This document shows positions 16,761 through 25,477 of a DNA stretch of 49,491 nt, one piece after another. Under the pieces are notes generated by a model, which saw only the letters and a list, made by a program, of their open reading frames with translations, did no database searches and was not told the origin of the DNA. The translations under genes were made by a program, and so were the position numbers. This DNA is from Bacillota bacterium (GTDB lineage: Bacteria; Bacillota; Limnochordia; DTU080), in assembly GCA_012840225.1 (NCBI GenBank), contig DULU01000035.1, positions 1 to 49,491 on the forward strand. Reading direction: 5' to 3'. The stretch's first letter is position 1. Each line of letters starts with the position of its first letter.

Positions 16761-17603
16761 ATGCAGCCATGTTTGTGGACGGATATGTTTGACGATCTGG
16801 AACCTGAAGAAGCGGTGCGGATCTGCGGGGAGGCCGGTTTCCGCCTGGTGGAGTTCGGCTGCAGCCACGAAGCCAAATATCTGGAAGGAAATGAGCGGGA
16901 AGGCGAGCGACTGGCCGGCATCAAGCAGGCAGCGGAGAAAGCCGGAGTGCAAATATTGCAGATGCACGGGCGCTTGTTCAACCTCTGCGGGGCCGATGCC
17001 GAAGCCAACATCGCCTGGGCGCACCGCTCCATAAGAAGAGCGGCGGAACTGGGCGTGCGGTGGGTGGTATTACATCCCGGCTCGAGCGAAAATTATGGGG
17101 CCGATGTTGAGGAGATGGAGTGGGTGCGCGCCCGCAATGTGGAGGTGTTTCGCTCATTTGCCAAGACGGCCGCCGAGGTGGGTGTGGGTATCGCTATAGA
17201 GAATATGTCCATGAAAAAGCATCGCTTCGGCGCCATGGTAGGCGATTTGCTTTGGCTGTTGGAGCAGTTGGCCGGCAGTCGGGTCGGTATTTGCTGGGAT
17301 ACCGGGCATGCACAACTGTCGCAGCTTAACCAAGCAGTGGCGGTGAAAACCCTTGGGAGCCGGCTGGTGGCTTTACATATTGATGATAACGACGGCCTCT
17401 CCGATAAGCACTGGACTCCGCTGCGCGGCAGTGTCAAATGGCCGGAATTTATGTCCGCCTTGAGGAGCATTGGCTTCACGGGGCCGTTCAACCTGGAGGT
17501 ACCCGGAGAGCGCAACGTAACTCCCCTTCCGGCCCGGCCGGCCAAAGCCCGCTATTTATATGAACTATGCCGCTACATGCTTAGCCCGGCTTTCGGCGCC
17601 TAG
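16761..17603 (+). CDS. sugar phosphate isomerase/epimerase (xylose-isomerase-like TIM barrel)
   Basis: A 280-residue AP_endonuc_2-fold TIM barrel. The barrel metal-site pattern is visible: a glutamate in VGIAIENMSM (about residue 145), Asp and His in GICWDTGHAQLS (about 185), His and Asp in LVALHIDDNDGLSDKHW (about 210), and Glu in FNLEVPGE (about 250). Members isomerise or epimerise sugars, inositols or hydroxypyruvate, using a divalent metal. The specific substrate is unclear. AAGGAAG lies ten bases before ATG 16761. The last four bases overlap the end of the convergent deacetylase-like gene. Confidence 0.83.
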   Translation: MQPCLWTDMFDDLEPEEAVRICGEAGFRLVEFGCSHEAKYLEGNEREGERLAGIKQAAEKAGVQILQMHGRLFNLCGADAEANIAWAHRSIRRAAELGVRWVVLHPGSSENYGADVEEMEWVRARNVEVFRSFAKTAAEVGVGIAIENMSMKKHRFGAMVGDLLWLLEQLAGSRVGICWDTGHAQLSQLNQAVAVKTLGSRLVALHIDDNDGLSDKHWTPLRGSVKWPEFMSALRSIGFTGPFNLEVPGERNVTPLPARPAKARYLYELCRYMLSPAFGA

Positions 17604-19186
17604 ACAACCGGTTGGAGGTCGAGGCGGATCGTATCCCGCTCGCCCTGAATATCCTTTCCTCTTATGTTAAGGCGTAATAAACCCATCCCACGGCCGCCGG
17701 GCAGATAGGGTAAATACTCTTCATCTTCGACCCGGAGTTTCCCTCCGGTCGCTGTCACTCGGTGTGGTGGGGCCGGCAGTTCTACCAAGAGGGGCTGCCG
17801 GCCATAAACCTCTACGCTGATCTCCAGGCTTTCTTGGTTTATTTTCATATCGAAGAGGTGACAGGAACCTTTTTCCCGTTTAACCAGAGGAGGATGCTCC
17901 CAGGTGGCTCCTTCCGCAATGCAGGTTCCTTTCGCCGGGCGAGCGTCAATGACCAACAGATGCCGCCCTTTGGTGATTCCGCTGAGGCCGATCAACTGGT
18001 AGCCGTCGGGGTCCGGATCAGATATGGCGATCAGCCGCAAAGTGGAGGAAAAGACGGCAAGAGGCGGAGTTCCGTGTCCCCGATGGGCCTGACCACCAGC
18101 CTGGTGGTGGGCCGGGCGGCGCAGTTTAAGCCACAAGGGTGAGCCTGCGGTCAGGGTCTCAGCTTCCGCCGGTATTTGGGTGGCATCCAGAACTATTTTC
18201 ACTGCCTCTCCATCCGCATCCACGACGTCGGTTTGGCGCAGGGTGACGAAGCGGCTGAAAACCCACTGTGTGAAGCATTCCCGGGTGTCGGCGGCCAACA
18301 TCTGCGCACCGGAGGCAGCTGTGTTGCTCAGATAGTGCACCCATTTCTCCAAGACCTCATGATGGCGGCTTGGATCCTCAGCCAACAGGTTGGGCCAGTG
18401 GATGCCGCAGATCGGCCCGCGCTCGGGCTGTTCCGGTACAGTAGACCAGCTGTCCCAGGGCACGCCGTTCCGCCCTCTGTCTATCACCAGCAAACCGTGT
18501 TCAAAGCCGCCGTCGGGAGCCGCCAGGGGACTGAAATGATGGAAGCCGCCCCGGAAAGGCGTGGAGACAAATTCCACGCCGGCCTGTCTAAACAGTGCCC
18601 CCGTGGAGTCGGGGTCCTCGGCATCGAAATAATAATTGAAAGCACAGGGTACGGCCGATACGGGCGGTCTGTGGCCGGCGGCCGGACCGAGATCATACTG
18701 ATCGAGGATGGCTTGAAACACCTCGATGTGCTTTTCCAACACCGGGCGGGGCCAGCGCCGATTATGCCGGGCGCTGTACCATTCGGCTCTGATGCGCTCT
18801 CCGTTTTCCCAGTGTTCATGACCCACGCCGTGCATGGTCAGCTCGATATAAGGCGCCCGCTGCCTGAATATGGCGGCGGCTTCGTCGCTCCAGGATCCGA
18901 TCCTGCTGCTGTTGTCCCAGGCCGCCCCGGCTGCCGTGCTGGTAGGACAGGTGGCACAGATGTTGGTCTTGTCCCATTCGCAAAGGACCATGGCGGCCTG
19001 CGGTCGCATGCCCAGGCGTTCCCCCAGCTCGGTGATGGCGTAATAGTCTGCCGGACCCATCAGCCGGTTAACCCCGGCCCTGAAGGGCCCACCGCTCTCG
19101 GCCAAACTCCAACCTTCGCGCCAGCCCACATCGTCAATTACCAGTTGCACGGCGGTAGGAATCGCTATTTTCAGCAAGCCGGCCAT
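17600..19186 (-). CDS. putative polysaccharide deacetylase-like (NodB-fold) protein
   Basis: The 528-residue product begins with a TIM-barrel-like region resembling the glycoside hydrolase/deacetylase superfamily. LVIDDVGWREGW supplies an Asp pair at the first strand. IELTMHGVGHEHWENG supplies a His-x3-His pair, the arrangement by which carbohydrate esterase 4 and DUF2334 proteins bind metal. FVSTPFRGGFHH and GIHWPNLL may be later barrel segments. From about residue 300 there is a beta-rich region with no family I recognise, perhaps a carbohydrate-binding or jelly-roll module. There is no signal peptide at this start, so a cytoplasmic location is implied. It sits alone on its strand between a TIM-barrel isomerase and a SIMPL gene. 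Enzyme activity is inferred only. Confidence 0.5.
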   Translation of the reverse strand: MAGLLKIAIPTAVQLVIDDVGWREGWSLAESGGPFRAGVNRLMGPADYYAITELGERLGMRPQAAMVLCEWDKTNICATCPTSTAAGAAWDNSSRIGSWSDEAAAIFRQRAPYIELTMHGVGHEHWENGERIRAEWYSARHNRRWPRPVLEKHIEVFQAILDQYDLGPAAGHRPPVSAVPCAFNYYFDAEDPDSTGALFRQAGVEFVSTPFRGGFHHFSPLAAPDGGFEHGLLVIDRGRNGVPWDSWSTVPEQPERGPICGIHWPNLLAEDPSRHHEVLEKWVHYLSNTAASGAQMLAADTRECFTQWVFSRFVTLRQTDVVDADGEAVKIVLDATQIPAEAETLTAGSPLWLKLRRPAHHQAGGQAHRGHGTPPLAVFSSTLRLIAISDPDPDGYQLIGLSGITKGRHLLVIDARPAKGTCIAEGATWEHPPLVKREKGSCHLFDMKINQESLEISVEVYGRQPLLVELPAPPHRVTATGGKLRVEDEEYLPYLPGGRGMGLLRLNIRGKDIQGERDTIRLDLQPVV

Positions 19187-20093: not shown

Positions 20094-21209
20094 TTGGAGC
20101 GGGAGCGGGAGCCGGAGTTGGAGTTGGGTGATGATTATAGAACCTTTCATAATGAGACCATGGTGATCGATTCCCATAACGACACCATCGTCAGGCACTT
20201 GCGCAACCGCCTGCATTTGGCCGGGTGCGGGCGAGAGGTGCCTTCGGCGCCGGAGGCGAGTTGGGAGCCGTGGGAGGCGAGCGTGGTCGTCCGCTATGAC
20301 GGCAGGCCGGTGAGCGAACCCGAGAGCTCTTTGCAGCTGACCATGCCAAAAATAAAGGCCGGCGGCATCGACGTATTATATTGCGCTGTAGACGTGACCA
20401 GGGCCTGGAAAAGCCACCTGCCTTACCTCCTCGATGCCTTCGGCTATTTTTACCGCGAGCTTGAGGAAGCGGACGGGGAAGGCGGGGACGGGGAAGGCGG
20501 GGACGGAGCCGGCGGGCTGGTGCCGGTGACCACTGCAGCCGGTATGCAGGCCGCCAAGGATACCGGCCGGGTGGCGGCCGTGCTGGCAGTGGAGAATGCC
20601 GATGCCCTCGAAGGCAGCTTATATATCCCGCACCTCCTATATCGGCTGGGGGTCAGGGTGATGGGATTGACGCACAATCCCAGGGCGGATGCCGCCGACG
20701 GTAACGGGGAGCCGGCCGGAGGCGGCCTTACCGGTTTCGGACGCCGCCTGGTGCAAGAACTGAACCGTCTGGGCATGCTGATCGATGTTTCACATATCAG
20801 CCGGCGAGGCTTCTGGGATGTGGTAGAACAGAGCACGGCGCCGGTCATTGCCTCGCATAGCTGCTGCGCCGCCTTATGCCCTCATTCCCGCAATCTGGAC
20901 GACGACCAACTGCGGGCTTTGGCGCAAAATGGGGGTGTAGTGGGCATCACTTTCGTCCCCATGTTTGTTGATGACGATAAGCCGACCTTTTCCCGCCTGC
21001 TCGATCATTTTTGCCACGCCGTGGAGATCGCCGGCATCGATCATGTCGGGCTAGGTTCCGATTTCGACGGCGGCGGGGACCTATTGGCCGATGCGGCCGC
21101 CATGCCGTCCATCACCAAAGGACTCTTCGAGAGAGGCTTCAGCCGCGAGGAAGTAGCCAAGATTCTCGGCGGTAACCACCGGCGCGTGTTTGCTCAGGTA
21201 TGCGGGTAA
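20094..21209 (+). CDS. membrane dipeptidase (peptidase family M19)
   Basis: A zinc dipeptidase of the renal-dipeptidase family, 371 residues. The first metal motif DSHNDTI is near residue 25. Later motifs are VAAVLAVENADAL, VRVMGLTHNPRADA, GMLIDVSHISRRGFWDV, VIASHSCCAALCPHSRNLDDDQL and HVGLGSDFDGG. The start is TTG 20094, with AAGGAG seven bases upstream. Two low-complexity stretches stand out: an EREREPELELG N-terminus encoded by hexanucleotide repeats, and a GEGGDGEGGDGAGG loop near 20470-20515. No signal peptide is present, so it should act on peptides or D-amino-acid dipeptides in the cytoplasm. Confidence 0.9.
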   Translation: MEREREPELELGDDYRTFHNETMVIDSHNDTIVRHLRNRLHLAGCGREVPSAPEASWEPWEASVVVRYDGRPVSEPESSLQLTMPKIKAGGIDVLYCAVDVTRAWKSHLPYLLDAFGYFYRELEEADGEGGDGEGGDGAGGLVPVTTAAGMQAAKDTGRVAAVLAVENADALEGSLYIPHLLYRLGVRVMGLTHNPRADAADGNGEPAGGGLTGFGRRLVQELNRLGMLIDVSHISRRGFWDVVEQSTAPVIASHSCCAALCPHSRNLDDDQLRALAQNGGVVGITFVPMFVDDDKPTFSRLLDHFCHAVEIAGIDHVGLGSDFDGGGDLLADAAAMPSITKGLFERGFSREEVAKILGGNHRRVFAQVCG

Positions 21210-21233: not shown

Positions 21234-22040
21234 GTGGAAATAATCAACGACTACCAGCCACGGGGTAAATTCAAAGCAGCCCTATTTGACTTCGACGGCA
21301 CCGTCAGCCTGATCCGCCAAGGTTGGCAGGAAGTGATGGAGACCTATTTCACCGATGTCCTGATGCAGGCCTGCGGCTCAGGCGACAGGTCCGCCACGGC
21401 CGCCTATGTACGTAATTTCATAGATGAGCTGACAGGGGTGCAGACCATCTACCAGTGCATTCGATTGGCTGAGGAAGTAGCCGCCTGTGGCGGCCGTCCG
21501 GCTGATCCGCTGGAATATAAGCGGGAATACCACCGCCGCTTGATGCAGAAAATCGAGCATCGCATTCAGGGTCTTAAGGAAGGGCGCATCAAGACCGACG
21601 ATTTGTTGGTGCCGGGCGCGGTGTCGTTTCTCCGGGCTTTACAGGAGCGCGGCGTCGCTCTCTACCTGGCCAGCGGCACCGATGAAATCTATGTGCGCCA
21701 GGAAGCCGAGTTGCTTGGCATCAGCTCATTTTTTGCCGGGAATATCTACGGCGCGTTGGACAACTATAAATCATTTTCCAAGGAAATGGTCATACGGAAA
21801 ATCCTGGCGGAACATGACTATTCGGGCTGTAATCTGTTGGGTGTAGGCGATGGCTATGTGGAGATCCAGAATGTGAAAGCGGCCGGGGGTATGGCGGTGG
21901 GCGTGGCCACGGATGAGCTCGCCTGTATGGAGGTAGACACCTGGAAGCGCCACCGCTTGATCAATGCCGGCGCCGATGTCGTCATCCCCAATTACATAAA
22001 TCTGGAAGAAATCATGGATTACCTCTTCGGCAGCAATTAA
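21234..22040 (+). CDS. HAD superfamily hydrolase (cassette gene 1)
   Basis: A 268-residue HAD phosphatase. Motif I is ALFDFDGTVSLI (about residues 16-27), the second motif lies around ALYLASGTDE, and the acidic motif IV is LLGVGDGYVEIQNVKAAGG. A long helical cap lies between motifs I and II (type C1). GTG 21234 has AAGGAG nine bases upstream. It is followed by the deoxyhypusine-synthase-like and PfkB genes with gaps of only 24 and 14 bases, so the three form one operon. A sugar-phosphate phosphatase role fits this context but is inferred. Confidence 0.88.
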   Translation: MEIINDYQPRGKFKAALFDFDGTVSLIRQGWQEVMETYFTDVLMQACGSGDRSATAAYVRNFIDELTGVQTIYQCIRLAEEVAACGGRPADPLEYKREYHRRLMQKIEHRIQGLKEGRIKTDDLLVPGAVSFLRALQERGVALYLASGTDEIYVRQEAELLGISSFFAGNIYGALDNYKSFSKEMVIRKILAEHDYSGCNLLGVGDGYVEIQNVKAAGGMAVGVATDELACMEVDTWKRHRLINAGADVVIPNYINLEEIMDYLFGSN

Positions 22041-22064
22041 CAAAAAACTGAGTGAGGGATCGCT

Positions 22065-23024
22065 ATGCCTTTTCCGACTTTCGACCGCAGTGTTCTCAAG
22101 TTGAAGCCCCTCTCCGAAAGAGTTCATGACATGGATTTAAGTCACCTGCTTAAGCTGGATGATCCTATACCGCCGTTTTCTCATCCCTTCCTTGATATAT
22201 TAGCCGAGCGGATGCGGGCGGCCAGGGAGCGGAAGGCGGCGGTGATATTCATGATGGGTGCCCATGTCATCAAGGCCGGGGCATCGAACTTCGTCATCGA
22301 GTTGATGAAGCAAGGCTGGGTGACGCACTGTGCCCTGAACGGTGCCGGGGCCATTCATGATTTCGAGTTGGCCCTGATCGGCGCCACTACCGAAAGTGTA
22401 GCCCGCTACATCCGTACCGGCGAATTCGGCATGTGGCAGGAGACGGGCGACATCAACCTGGCAGCTGCCGAAGGATTGAAAGACGGCCTGGGTTTAGGTG
22501 AAGCCGTCGGCCGCATGATCGTCGCCAGGCGTTTTCCCCACAGCGAAAACAGCATATTGGCGACGGGTTACCGCCTGCAGGTGCCGGTGACCGTGCATGT
22601 CTCCATTGGCTGCGATATCATTCACCAGCATCCTTCCTGCGACGGGGCGGTGCTCGGTGCGGCTTCATATCACGACTTCCTGGTATTTGCTCATTCGGTC
22701 TCGAGGCTGGAGGGAGGGGTGTTCATCAATTTCGGGTCGGCCGTTACCGGGCCGGAAGTGTATCTCAAAGCCTTGTCCATGGCCCGCAATGCCGCCGGAC
22801 AGGAGGGTAAGGAGATCAGGCACTTCACGACGGCCGTGTGCGACCTGTATCCCTTGCCCGCAGAAGACTACCGCAACCAGCCCACCAAGGAGGACCATCG
22901 CTATTATTTCCGGCCCTGGAAGACGATACTGGTGCGCACGGTGGCCGACGGCGGTGAAAGCTATTATATACAAGGCGATCACCGCGCCGTCATTCCCAAC
23001 CTGGCCGCCAAGCTGTTGCATTGA
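22065..23024 (+). CDS. deoxyhypusine synthase-like protein (cassette gene 2)
   Basis: The 319-residue product resembles the NAD-binding deoxyhypusine synthase (DHS) fold. Matching parts are AAVIFMMGAHVIKAGASNFVIELMKQG, HCALNGAGAIHDFELALIGATTE in place of the TAGGxEED loop, and IHQHPSCDGAVLGAASYHDFLVF. Real DHS transfers a butylamine from spermidine to eIF5A through an active-site lysine in a KHH motif. Here the corresponding stretch reads INFGSAVTGPEVYLKA, without KHH, so classical DHS chemistry is unlikely. Bacteria have no eIF5A, and some DHS-like proteins are polyamine enzymes. Position between a HAD phosphatase and a RfaE-like kinase points to sugar or nucleotide-sugar chemistry. GAGGGA lies before ATG 22065. 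Confidence 0.72.
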   Translation: MPFPTFDRSVLKLKPLSERVHDMDLSHLLKLDDPIPPFSHPFLDILAERMRAARERKAAVIFMMGAHVIKAGASNFVIELMKQGWVTHCALNGAGAIHDFELALIGATTESVARYIRTGEFGMWQETGDINLAAAEGLKDGLGLGEAVGRMIVARRFPHSENSILATGYRLQVPVTVHVSIGCDIIHQHPSCDGAVLGAASYHDFLVFAHSVSRLEGGVFINFGSAVTGPEVYLKALSMARNAAGQEGKEIRHFTTAVCDLYPLPAEDYRNQPTKEDHRYYFRPWKTILVRTVADGGESYYIQGDHRAVIPNLAAKLLH

Positions 23025-23038
23025 TGCTAAGGAATGGG

Positions 23039-24079
23039 ATGATACGAATGACACCATTGCTGACCGGAAGGCAAATCGATAACCTCTTGGCGCAACTAAA
23101 AGATAAGACCATATTGGTCGTCGGCGACTATTTTCTTGATAGATATCTGATAATCGATGCGGCCAGGGATGAGCTGTCTTTGGAAACCAATCTGGTGGCC
23201 TACCAGGTGGTCGGGCAAAGGATCTCTCCCGGGGCGGCAGGCACCATCACCAACAACCTCAGGGCGCTCGGTGTAGGAAAGGTGCTGGCTTTGGGTTTTA
23301 CCGGAGACGACGGCGAGGGCTATGAGCTGAGGAGGGCCCTGAAGCAAAGCGGTGTGGATATCACCCACCTCTTGGTCGACAGCCGGCGCGTGACCCCTAC
23401 ATACTGCAAACCCATGAGAAAGGCCGGCGATGAAGAAAAAGAGATCAACAGGTTGGATATAAAAAACTGGACCGCCACACCTATCGAATTGCAGGAGCAC
23501 CTCATAGAAAATATGTTTGCTCTGGCCGGCAGTGTCGATGCCGTCATAGTGCTCGACCAGGTGACCGAGATGGACTGCGGTGTGGTGACGCAGCTTATGC
23601 GCTCGGCTCTTGGCAAGCTGATCACCACCCATCCTCATCTTCCTATCCTGGTCGACTCCCGCCGCCACATCAATTCCTTCCGGAGCACCATCATCAAGTG
23701 CAATGCCGCCGAACTCATGGGGAGCCGTACGGTGGCCGACCGCCGGGCGGTGCAGGAAGCGGCTCTGGCCTTGTCTGCCGAAAACAAACGTCCTGCCTTC
23801 ATCACCATGGGCGAGGCGGGACAGTTGGTGGCCGGTGACGGTGTGGTGCAGGTAGTGCCGGCCATTCCCGTGGCCGGACCCGTGGATACTGTCGGTGCCG
23901 GCGACGCCACTATGGCCGGCATCACCTGCAGTTTGATTTGCGGCTTTACTCCGGAGCAAGCGGCTTTCTTCGGCAATCTGGTCGCCTCCATAACTATCAA
24001 GAAGCTGGGGGTGACCGGTACGGCCAGCCCGGAGGAGATAAGGCGGCAATACGCCGAGCTGTGCAATCTGACGGGATAA
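23039..24079 (+). CDS. PfkB-family carbohydrate kinase, RfaE1/HldE-like (cassette gene 3)
   Basis: A ribokinase-fold sugar kinase of about 346 residues. The start of the fold is TILVVGDYFLDRYLI. The substrate region is ISPGAAGTITNNLRALGVGKVLALGFTGDD, and the anion hole with catalytic Asp is GPVDTVGAGDATMAGI. It is closest in style to D-glycero-beta-D-manno-heptose-7-phosphate kinase (RfaE domain I), but the SLETN stretch and lack of a nucleotidyltransferase domain make that tentative. I set the start at ATG 23039 because AAGG lies upstream. ATG 23024, overlapping the previous stop, is possible. It closes the HAD/DHS-like/kinase operon. Confidence 0.85.
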   Translation: MIRMTPLLTGRQIDNLLAQLKDKTILVVGDYFLDRYLIIDAARDELSLETNLVAYQVVGQRISPGAAGTITNNLRALGVGKVLALGFTGDDGEGYELRRALKQSGVDITHLLVDSRRVTPTYCKPMRKAGDEEKEINRLDIKNWTATPIELQEHLIENMFALAGSVDAVIVLDQVTEMDCGVVTQLMRSALGKLITTHPHLPILVDSRRHINSFRSTIIKCNAAELMGSRTVADRRAVQEAALALSAENKRPAFITMGEAGQLVAGDGVVQVVPAIPVAGPVDTVGAGDATMAGITCSLICGFTPEQAAFFGNLVASITIKKLGVTGTASPEEIRRQYAELCNLTG

Positions 24080-24208: not shown

Positions 24209-25477
24209 TTGCATAAACGATTCAACGATGCCAGGGATTGGTTCTTTGAGAAAAGGTTCGGCCTTTTCGTGCATTGGGGACTTTATGCCATTCCGGCTTG
24301 GCACGAGCAGATCCTCTGGCGAACCAAAATGAAACGTTCCGAGTACGAGAAATTGAGGCATTCGTTCAACCCTACCCGCTTTGACCCCGATCGTTGGCTG
24401 GATATCATGGAAGAAGCAGGTATGGAATATATAGTGTTCACCACCAAGCATCACGATGGCTTCTGCCTGTGGAACACGCGTTATACCGACTATAACGTGA
24501 TGAACACGCCTTTTGGCCGCGATGTCGTGGAAATGCTGGCCAATGCCTGTCATAAGAGAAACATACCTCTCGGTTTCTATTATTCCATTCCGGATTGGCA
24601 TCACCCGAATTACCCCAATCAGGGACGACATCATGAGATGTTCGGGCCAAGGGCGACAGACTGTCCCGATCGGGAAGCATATCTCGAATATGTCGTCAAT
24701 CAGATGCGGGAGCTTTGCACCAACTATGGCGAGGTGCATCTGATATTCTGGGATGTAAACGTTCTGGGGTGGTATGATCCGCAAGTAAATGCCATGATCC
24801 GCTCGTGGCAACCCAAGGCGGTAATCAACGATCGCGGTCCCGATGGAGGAGACTTCGGTACCCCTGAACGCCATGTTCCCGATGGGCAGGAATTCTCACG
24901 TCCCACTCAAGCCTGTCAGTCCCTGGGCAGGGAGAGCTGGGGATACAAGGAAGACGAGGATTACTATACAGCTAAGTATCTCATCCAGAGCATCGATAAA
25001 GTATTAGCCATGGGCGGCAGCTATCTCCTCAATGTGGGGCCGAAAGCCGACGGGAGCTTTGCCGACATGGACATAGCGCTATTGCGACGCATCGGAAAGT
25101 GGTATAAGTCGGTCAAGGAAGCTTTCACCGGTACGGTGCCTGCTTCGCACTTGGTGGTGCCCGACGAAATAGCCAAAGCCGGCTCGGTGGAGCGGGCCAG
25201 GCGCGATGATTTCCTTTTGACCCGGGCCGGAAATACCATTTATGTGCATCTGTATCGCGATCCGCAAAGTACGGCGGTGATCCTGAAGCCGATCGATGTC
25301 CTGCCGAAGAAAGCTATAGTGTTGAACACCGGCGAAAAGCTTGAAACACGTGTCGATGTCACCCCGTGGCATTGGCGGGAAAAACCTTGGCTGCGGGTGA
25401 GAGGACTGCCTGTGGATCAATTCGCTGATTCTGTAATGGTGCTGAAGCTCGAATTTGCTCCGGAGGATATAGACTGA
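24209..25477 (+). CDS. alpha-L-fucosidase family protein (GH29)
   Basis: A retaining alpha-L-fucosidase of 422 residues. Family landmarks are FGLFVHWGLYAIPAWHEQ, FNPTRFDPDRWLDIMEEAGMEYIVFTTKHHDGFCLW, GFYYSIPDWHHPNY and LIFWDVN, where the Asp takes the place of the nucleophile. SWGYKEDEDYYT and GGSYLLNVGPKADGSF follow. A short C-terminal beta domain closes the protein. There is no signal peptide, so it would act on oligosaccharides after uptake. The start is TTG 24209 behind GGGGGTG; no in-frame ATG precedes the HWG region. It stands alone between the kinase cassette and a shared terminator, and with the sulfatase suggests use of fucose-containing glycans. Confidence 0.92.
   Translation: MHKRFNDARDWFFEKRFGLFVHWGLYAIPAWHEQILWRTKMKRSEYEKLRHSFNPTRFDPDRWLDIMEEAGMEYIVFTTKHHDGFCLWNTRYTDYNVMNTPFGRDVVEMLANACHKRNIPLGFYYSIPDWHHPNYPNQGRHHEMFGPRATDCPDREAYLEYVVNQMRELCTNYGEVHLIFWDVNVLGWYDPQVNAMIRSWQPKAVINDRGPDGGDFGTPERHVPDGQEFSRPTQACQSLGRESWGYKEDEDYYTAKYLIQSIDKVLAMGGSYLLNVGPKADGSFADMDIALLRRIGKWYKSVKEAFTGTVPASHLVVPDEIAKAGSVERARRDDFLLTRAGNTIYVHLYRDPQSTAVILKPIDVLPKKAIVLNTGEKLETRVDVTPWHWREKPWLRVRGLPVDQFADSVMVLKLEFAPEDID

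Follow-up and report, generated by a model that had tools for sequence, protein, structure and literature searches.

A conserved kinase, isomerase and phosphatase gene set around a DHS-fold protein probably belongs to an undescribed bacterial sugar-phosphate pathway

The described systems closest to the locus studied here are the ADP-heptose pathway, with the enzymes GmhA, HldE/HldA and GmhB, and the amine enzymes deoxyhypusine synthase (DHS) and ornithine cyclodeaminase. In G. sulfurreducens, transposon disruption of GSU2085, GSU2086 and GSU2087 gave defects on electrodes of -3.1, -3.2 and -3.7, respectively (PMC5585712). We found no description in the open literature of the pathway proposed below, nor any work that links PfkB, ROK or ADP-heptose to deoxyhypusine synthase; GSU2086 is named in a single paper among those found.

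The window, a stretch of 49,491 nucleotides from a Bacillota genome (assembly of 3.55 Mb in 154 contigs, 96.6% complete), carries three adjacent genes, whose features are as follows.

21234-22040, forward strand: HAD-superfamily phosphatase of a module-specific subfamily, 268 aa, GTG start, PF00702
21288-21302, forward strand: HAD motif I, DFDGT (residues 19-23), with the nucleophile and acid/base aspartates; D19, F20, D21, G22 and T23 invariant
21846-21863, forward strand: HAD motif IV, GDGYVE (residues 205-210), metal site; G205, D206, G207 and E210 invariant
22065-23024, forward strand: GSU2086-family protein, 319 aa, DHS/ornithine-cyclodeaminase-like Rossmann fold, ATG start, NF052581
22356-22367, forward strand: HDFE motif (residues 98-101) in the stretch common to ArgZ/AgrE and LOR/SDH proteins; H98, D99 and E101 invariant in 58 sequences
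22767-22769, forward strand: Lys235, invariant in the alignment of relatives, in the context YLKAL and outside any KHH context
23039-24079, forward strand: PfkB-family kinase, HldA/RfaE-like, module-specific subfamily, ATG start, PF00294
23894-23905, forward strand: PfkB catalytic motif GAGD; G282, A283, G284 and D285 invariant in 29 relatives

All three genes are intact. The gaps of 24 bases (HAD to GSU2086) and 14 bases (GSU2086 to PfkB) agree with the original prediction. Purine runs resembling Shine-Dalgarno sequences precede the three reading frames and are plausible ribosome-binding sites; the kinase frame as called mechanically opens at TTG 23021, versus the ATG at 23039. An alpha-L-fucosidase gene at 24209 and an M19 dipeptidase gene at 20094 flank the set, and neither was seen to recur beside it in other loci. 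A 528-aa reading frame on the minus strand of the window (17603-19186) has no Pfam or NCBIfam match.

Judged by sequence, the middle protein is a clear member of NF052581, a family already named in NCBIfam ("GSU2086 family") with no assigned function. It scores 402.2 bits (cut-off 250, 1.7e-120) and spans positions 2-300 of 301. Relatives from the same class share 44-72% identity with long invariant blocks, and 47 residues are invariant in a 58-sequence alignment drawn from many phyla. The structure was predicted with AlphaFold2 (pLDDT 89.7, pTM 0.90) and searched against the PDB with Foldseek. The matches are the ornithine-cyclodeaminase domains of AgrE and ArgZ, the archaeal LOR/SDH protein 3c2q, and archaeal and human DHS (E 3e-8 to 7e-7, TM-scores of about 0.5). 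The model thus has a DHS-like NAD-binding fold, supported at E of about 4e-8 to 7e-7 with a TM-score near 0.5, which suggests that the protein uses NAD. The viral structure library gave no significant match. In sequence the likeness is first to ornithine cyclodeaminases of the ArgZ/AgrE type: profile searches reach only ArgZ, AgrE and 3c2q, and do so over some 65 residues that include HD-x-E, and the match to PF21570 covers residues 46-109 only. Equivalog scores lie far below their cut-offs (NF052231, 20 bits against 1025; TIGR00300, 19.5 against 410.8). A second GSU2086 subfamily occurs at loci L013, L014 and L026; it shares about 45% of its residues with the window protein, differs at the N-terminus and directly precedes its own PfkB subtype.

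The original prediction described a DHS-fold protein that lacks the KHH lysine. At the level of fold the model and Foldseek bear this out; what it overlooked is the existing, functionless NF052581. Assignment to the DHS family itself is wrong, because there is no PF01916 match (at 1e-3) and no KHH motif, which is absent from both the protein and its aligned relatives. What was found is therefore not an intact DHS active site. The absence of the DHS lysine is read from the missing motif and by eye: the Gly-rich strand that corresponds to the lysine site, located by eye only, reads GSAVTGPE, and a profile-profile alignment to DHS (19% probability) pairs 55 N-terminal columns, with the lysine region outside the aligned part. 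An enzyme of polyamine or hypusine metabolism, such as DHS or homospermidine synthase, placed by chance beside sugar genes would account for the DHS fold. Against it stand the missing family match and lysine, the strict association with a kinase of sugar type, a phosphatase and an isomerase, and the annotated neighbours, among which no polyamine family was seen; this explanation is largely refuted and very improbable. The polyamine-conjugate pathway once offered for the locus likewise finds no support: a whole-genome search of the window's genome found no PF01916 protein, and the annotated neighbours include no polyamine family. At L172 (1321-2499), a bacterial PF01916 protein carries its lysine in GGGSPKN instead of KHH and is possibly another DHS-type enzyme.

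A scan of genome contigs found at least 584 relatives of the GSU2086 protein, of which 80 were kept. Their titles name Planctomycetota, Acidobacteriota, Chloroflexota, Armatimonadota, Bacillota, Latescibacterota, Omnitrophota, Aminicenantes, Acetothermia, Synergistaceae, WS1 and others, about a dozen phyla. Where the flank was long enough, a HAD gene lies directly upstream in 45 of 74 loci and a PfkB gene directly downstream in 54 of 72. When the GSU2086 gene is unlinked, its partners are usually elsewhere in the genome: the module PfkB in 17 of 20 cases (1e-107 or better) and the module HAD in 19 of 20 (1e-83 or better), counted by genome labels of which two pairs appear to denote the same genome. 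Several of these unlinked partners sit together as a HAD-PfkB pair. Among 101 related genomes, the PfkB subfamily is present in 19 of the 22 with GSU2086 and in none of the 79 without it, and the HAD subfamily has the same distribution (19/22 and 0/79; Fisher 9e-18 for each partner, a value that ignores the shared ancestry of the genomes). The module kinase separates cleanly from its paralogues, with best matches of 1e-80 or better against 1e-53 or worse. The grouping is non-random, being kept across phyla and in phylogenetic profiles, and the survey finds kinase and phosphatase recurring with GSU2086 homologues, as the original prediction had supposed, rather than homologues that never accompany them.

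Two other arrangements were seen. In G062 (contig C105, 252-3127 and 20144-23019) the three-gene set occurs twice with identical scores, inverted and close to the two ends of the contig, which may reflect misassembly. In several same-class Bacillota (L038, L051 and L123), the GSU2086 gene comes last in a putative ABC transporter operon of MalEFG type and neighbours a gene of the uroporphyrinogen-decarboxylase family, with HAD and PfkB elsewhere.

The set is larger than three genes. A SIS-domain protein adjoins it on two annotated plasmids, and when the plasmid protein was used as a query, about 25 loci proved to carry GmhA-like SIS proteins. SIS proteins of this type are present in 13 of the 22 GSU2086 genomes, against 1 of the 79 others, and in 23 of the 26 genomes of other loci (1e-57 or better). 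A ROK kinase is often adjacent as well. Neither is always adjacent; in the window's genome a ROK-SIS pair lies with a GFO/IDH/MocA gene on another contig (contig 70). Fusions join the same partners: SIS-HAD at L057 and L070 (8579-9997; Anaerotruncus), HAD-GSU2086 at L091 (9143-10951; Sulfopaludibacter) and GSU2086-SIS at L054 (3837-5534, minus strand) in Ornatilinea apprima, where a second, divergent GSU2086 protein bears a C-terminal SIS domain. The Ornatilinea fusion gene shares its operon with sugar permeases of MalFG type. The fourth member thus looks like a GmhA-like SIS isomerase and an often present fifth like a ROK sugar kinase. The earlier grouping of kinase, phosphatase and DHS-fold protein stands; these two partners had been missed.

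The catalytic motifs of the flanking enzymes are intact. The HAD protein matches PF00702 (49 bits, 9e-13), and HAD motifs I (DFDGT), II (SGT), III (K) and IV (GDGxxE) are invariant or nearly so among 27 aligned relatives. The kinase belongs to the PfkB family (PF00294, 108 bits, 5.9e-31). Its nearest NCBIfam model is TIGR02198 (rfaE_dom_I), at 132.7 bits and 1.5e-38, below the equivalog cut-off of 345; its L109 homologue, at 138.6 bits, is likewise below. Its nearest solved structure is the heptose-7-phosphate kinase 4e84 (HldA; 2e-27), and fructoselysine 6-kinase is matched weakly. For the module SIS proteins the nearest solved relative is GmhA, phosphoheptose isomerase. The L109 and L108 proteins reach 118 and 66 bits against the TIGR00441 (GmhA) cut-off of 209. 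The invariant SIS residues Asp62 and His178 seem to match the catalytic Glu65 and His180 of E. coli GmhA. The similar groupings with RfaE-like genes in other bacteria, named in the original prediction, are supported: the kinase subfamily is HldA/RfaE-like and the grouping is kept across phyla.

These relationships raise the question of a variant ADP-heptose pathway, in which the SIS protein would be GmhA, the PfkB protein the HldE kinase domain and the HAD protein GmhB, with the GSU2086 protein as an accessory, for example for an unusual heptose of lipopolysaccharide or S-layer glycan. The closest relatives of the kinase and SIS protein, HldA and GmhA, are as it would require. In G. sulfurreducens, GSU2085 (annotated hldE), GSU2086 and GSU2087 (gmhA) are consecutive and share similar electrode defects, and on a Solidesulfovibrio plasmid a kinase fused to a nucleotidyltransferase stands beside GSU2086 and SIS genes in an acidic-sugar cluster. 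However, the kinase and SIS protein fall far under the HldE and GmhA equivalog cut-offs, and an NCBIfam search gave no match of the module HAD to the GmhB model. The heptose-1-phosphate nucleotidyltransferase model TIGR02199 has no match in a whole-genome search of the window's genome (96.6% complete), is missing from most module genomes of its class and is found mainly in genomes without GSU2086. Weaker paralogues, probably of the canonical type, can moreover coexist with the module enzymes. We consider this variant unlikely, and ADP-heptose synthesis as such is an unlikely function in the window's genome because of the sub-cut-off kinase and SIS scores, the missing GmhB match and the lack of TIGR02199.

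We prefer another assignment: the three gene products are probably the HAD, GSU2086-type and PfkB components of an undescribed but conserved kinase/isomerase/phosphatase sugar-phosphate pathway, whose middle enzyme would be NAD-dependent. A sugar-phosphate pathway had been suggested from a kinase and a phosphatase around an NAD-type fold, and co-occurrence and fold agree with it. In the scheme that we envisage, a sugar would be phosphorylated on its terminal carbon by the ROK kinase, or a sugar phosphate drawn from central metabolism, and the SIS protein would interconvert the ketose and aldose phosphates. The GSU2086 protein, with tightly held NAD, might then transiently oxidise a carbinol (or amine) carbon, so that the substrate is epimerised, isomerised or eliminated, and give the hydride back, the course that DHS and ornithine cyclodeaminase follow with amines. 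A phosphate would be put on C1 by the PfkB kinase, which resembles HldA, and the HAD phosphatase would take one phosphate off. Our more specific and tentative proposal, to which we give somewhat less than even odds, places a DHS-fold enzyme between an isomerase like GmhA and a kinase like HldA in an undescribed pathway of about a dozen bacterial phyla, where it would shuttle hydride by way of NAD on a sugar phosphate and not on an amine. Against the preferred assignment, the TM-scores of the GSU2086 model to NAD-using relatives are only about 0.5.

The substrate could instead be an amine-bearing sugar. In amine-linked or amino-sugar catabolism the GSU2086 protein would cleave or deaminate a C-N bond with NAD, like ornithine cyclodeaminase and DHS, and the SIS and PfkB proteins would process the released sugar phosphate, loosely as in fructoselysine use. 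The nearest sequence relatives of the GSU2086 protein do act on amines, the weak PfkB match to fructoselysine 6-kinase points the same way, SIS-type deglycases exist, and ABC importers, GFO/IDH/MocA oxidoreductases and xylose-isomerase-like proteins are found nearby. Yet the SIS and PfkB proteins are much nearer GmhA and HldA than the fructoselysine enzymes, and the neighbourhoods surveyed show no recurring gene specific to amines, which leaves this route doubtful, more so than the heptose variant. The commonest identified neighbours of the module are ABC transporters and GFO/IDH/MocA oxidoreductases, and neighbour genes are too mixed to point to one substrate. The Geobacter and Solidesulfovibrio contexts look biosynthetic and suggest a glycan role; in Chloroflexota and Clostridia the many loci that adjoin importers of sugars and oxidoreductases suggest catabolism. 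One product may therefore not fit all.

The conservation of the four-enzyme set in Bacillota, Planctomycetota, Chloroflexota, Acidobacteriota, Armatimonadota and others points to a sugar pathway that is widespread and has no product assigned to it. The family name is already in NCBIfam; the probable pathway is conserved and functionally unassigned. The core of the original prediction is upheld and extended, and its polyamine branch is not supported. Such a pathway would carry the DHS/ornithine-cyclodeaminase fold over from amines to the chemistry of sugar phosphates. It would also account for heptose-kinase-like and phosphoheptose-isomerase-like genes where ADP-heptose synthesis is lacking, as in some genomes, and offer a way into the electrode-growth phenotype of Geobacter GSU2085-2087.

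Compared with known systems, the module resembles the ADP-heptose pathway in its logic of isomerase, C1-type kinase and phosphatase and in the nearest solved relatives of its SIS and PfkB proteins. It differs in that its enzymes are separate sub-cut-off subfamilies with an additional NAD-type enzyme, and in that the window's genome has no nucleotidyltransferase. ArgZ/AgrE and LOR/SDH proteins (TIGR00300) are the top Foldseek matches of the GSU2086 protein and have in common with it the stretch G-x-x-VI-x-x-G ... NA/GA-x-x-HD-x-E; their N-terminal domains are missing from it, and the likeness is limited to about 65 residues of sequence and a TM-score of about 0.5. With DHS (PF01916) it shares the fold class detected by Foldseek, and it differs in sequence family, in the KHH lysine and in the polyamine context, none of which was seen here.
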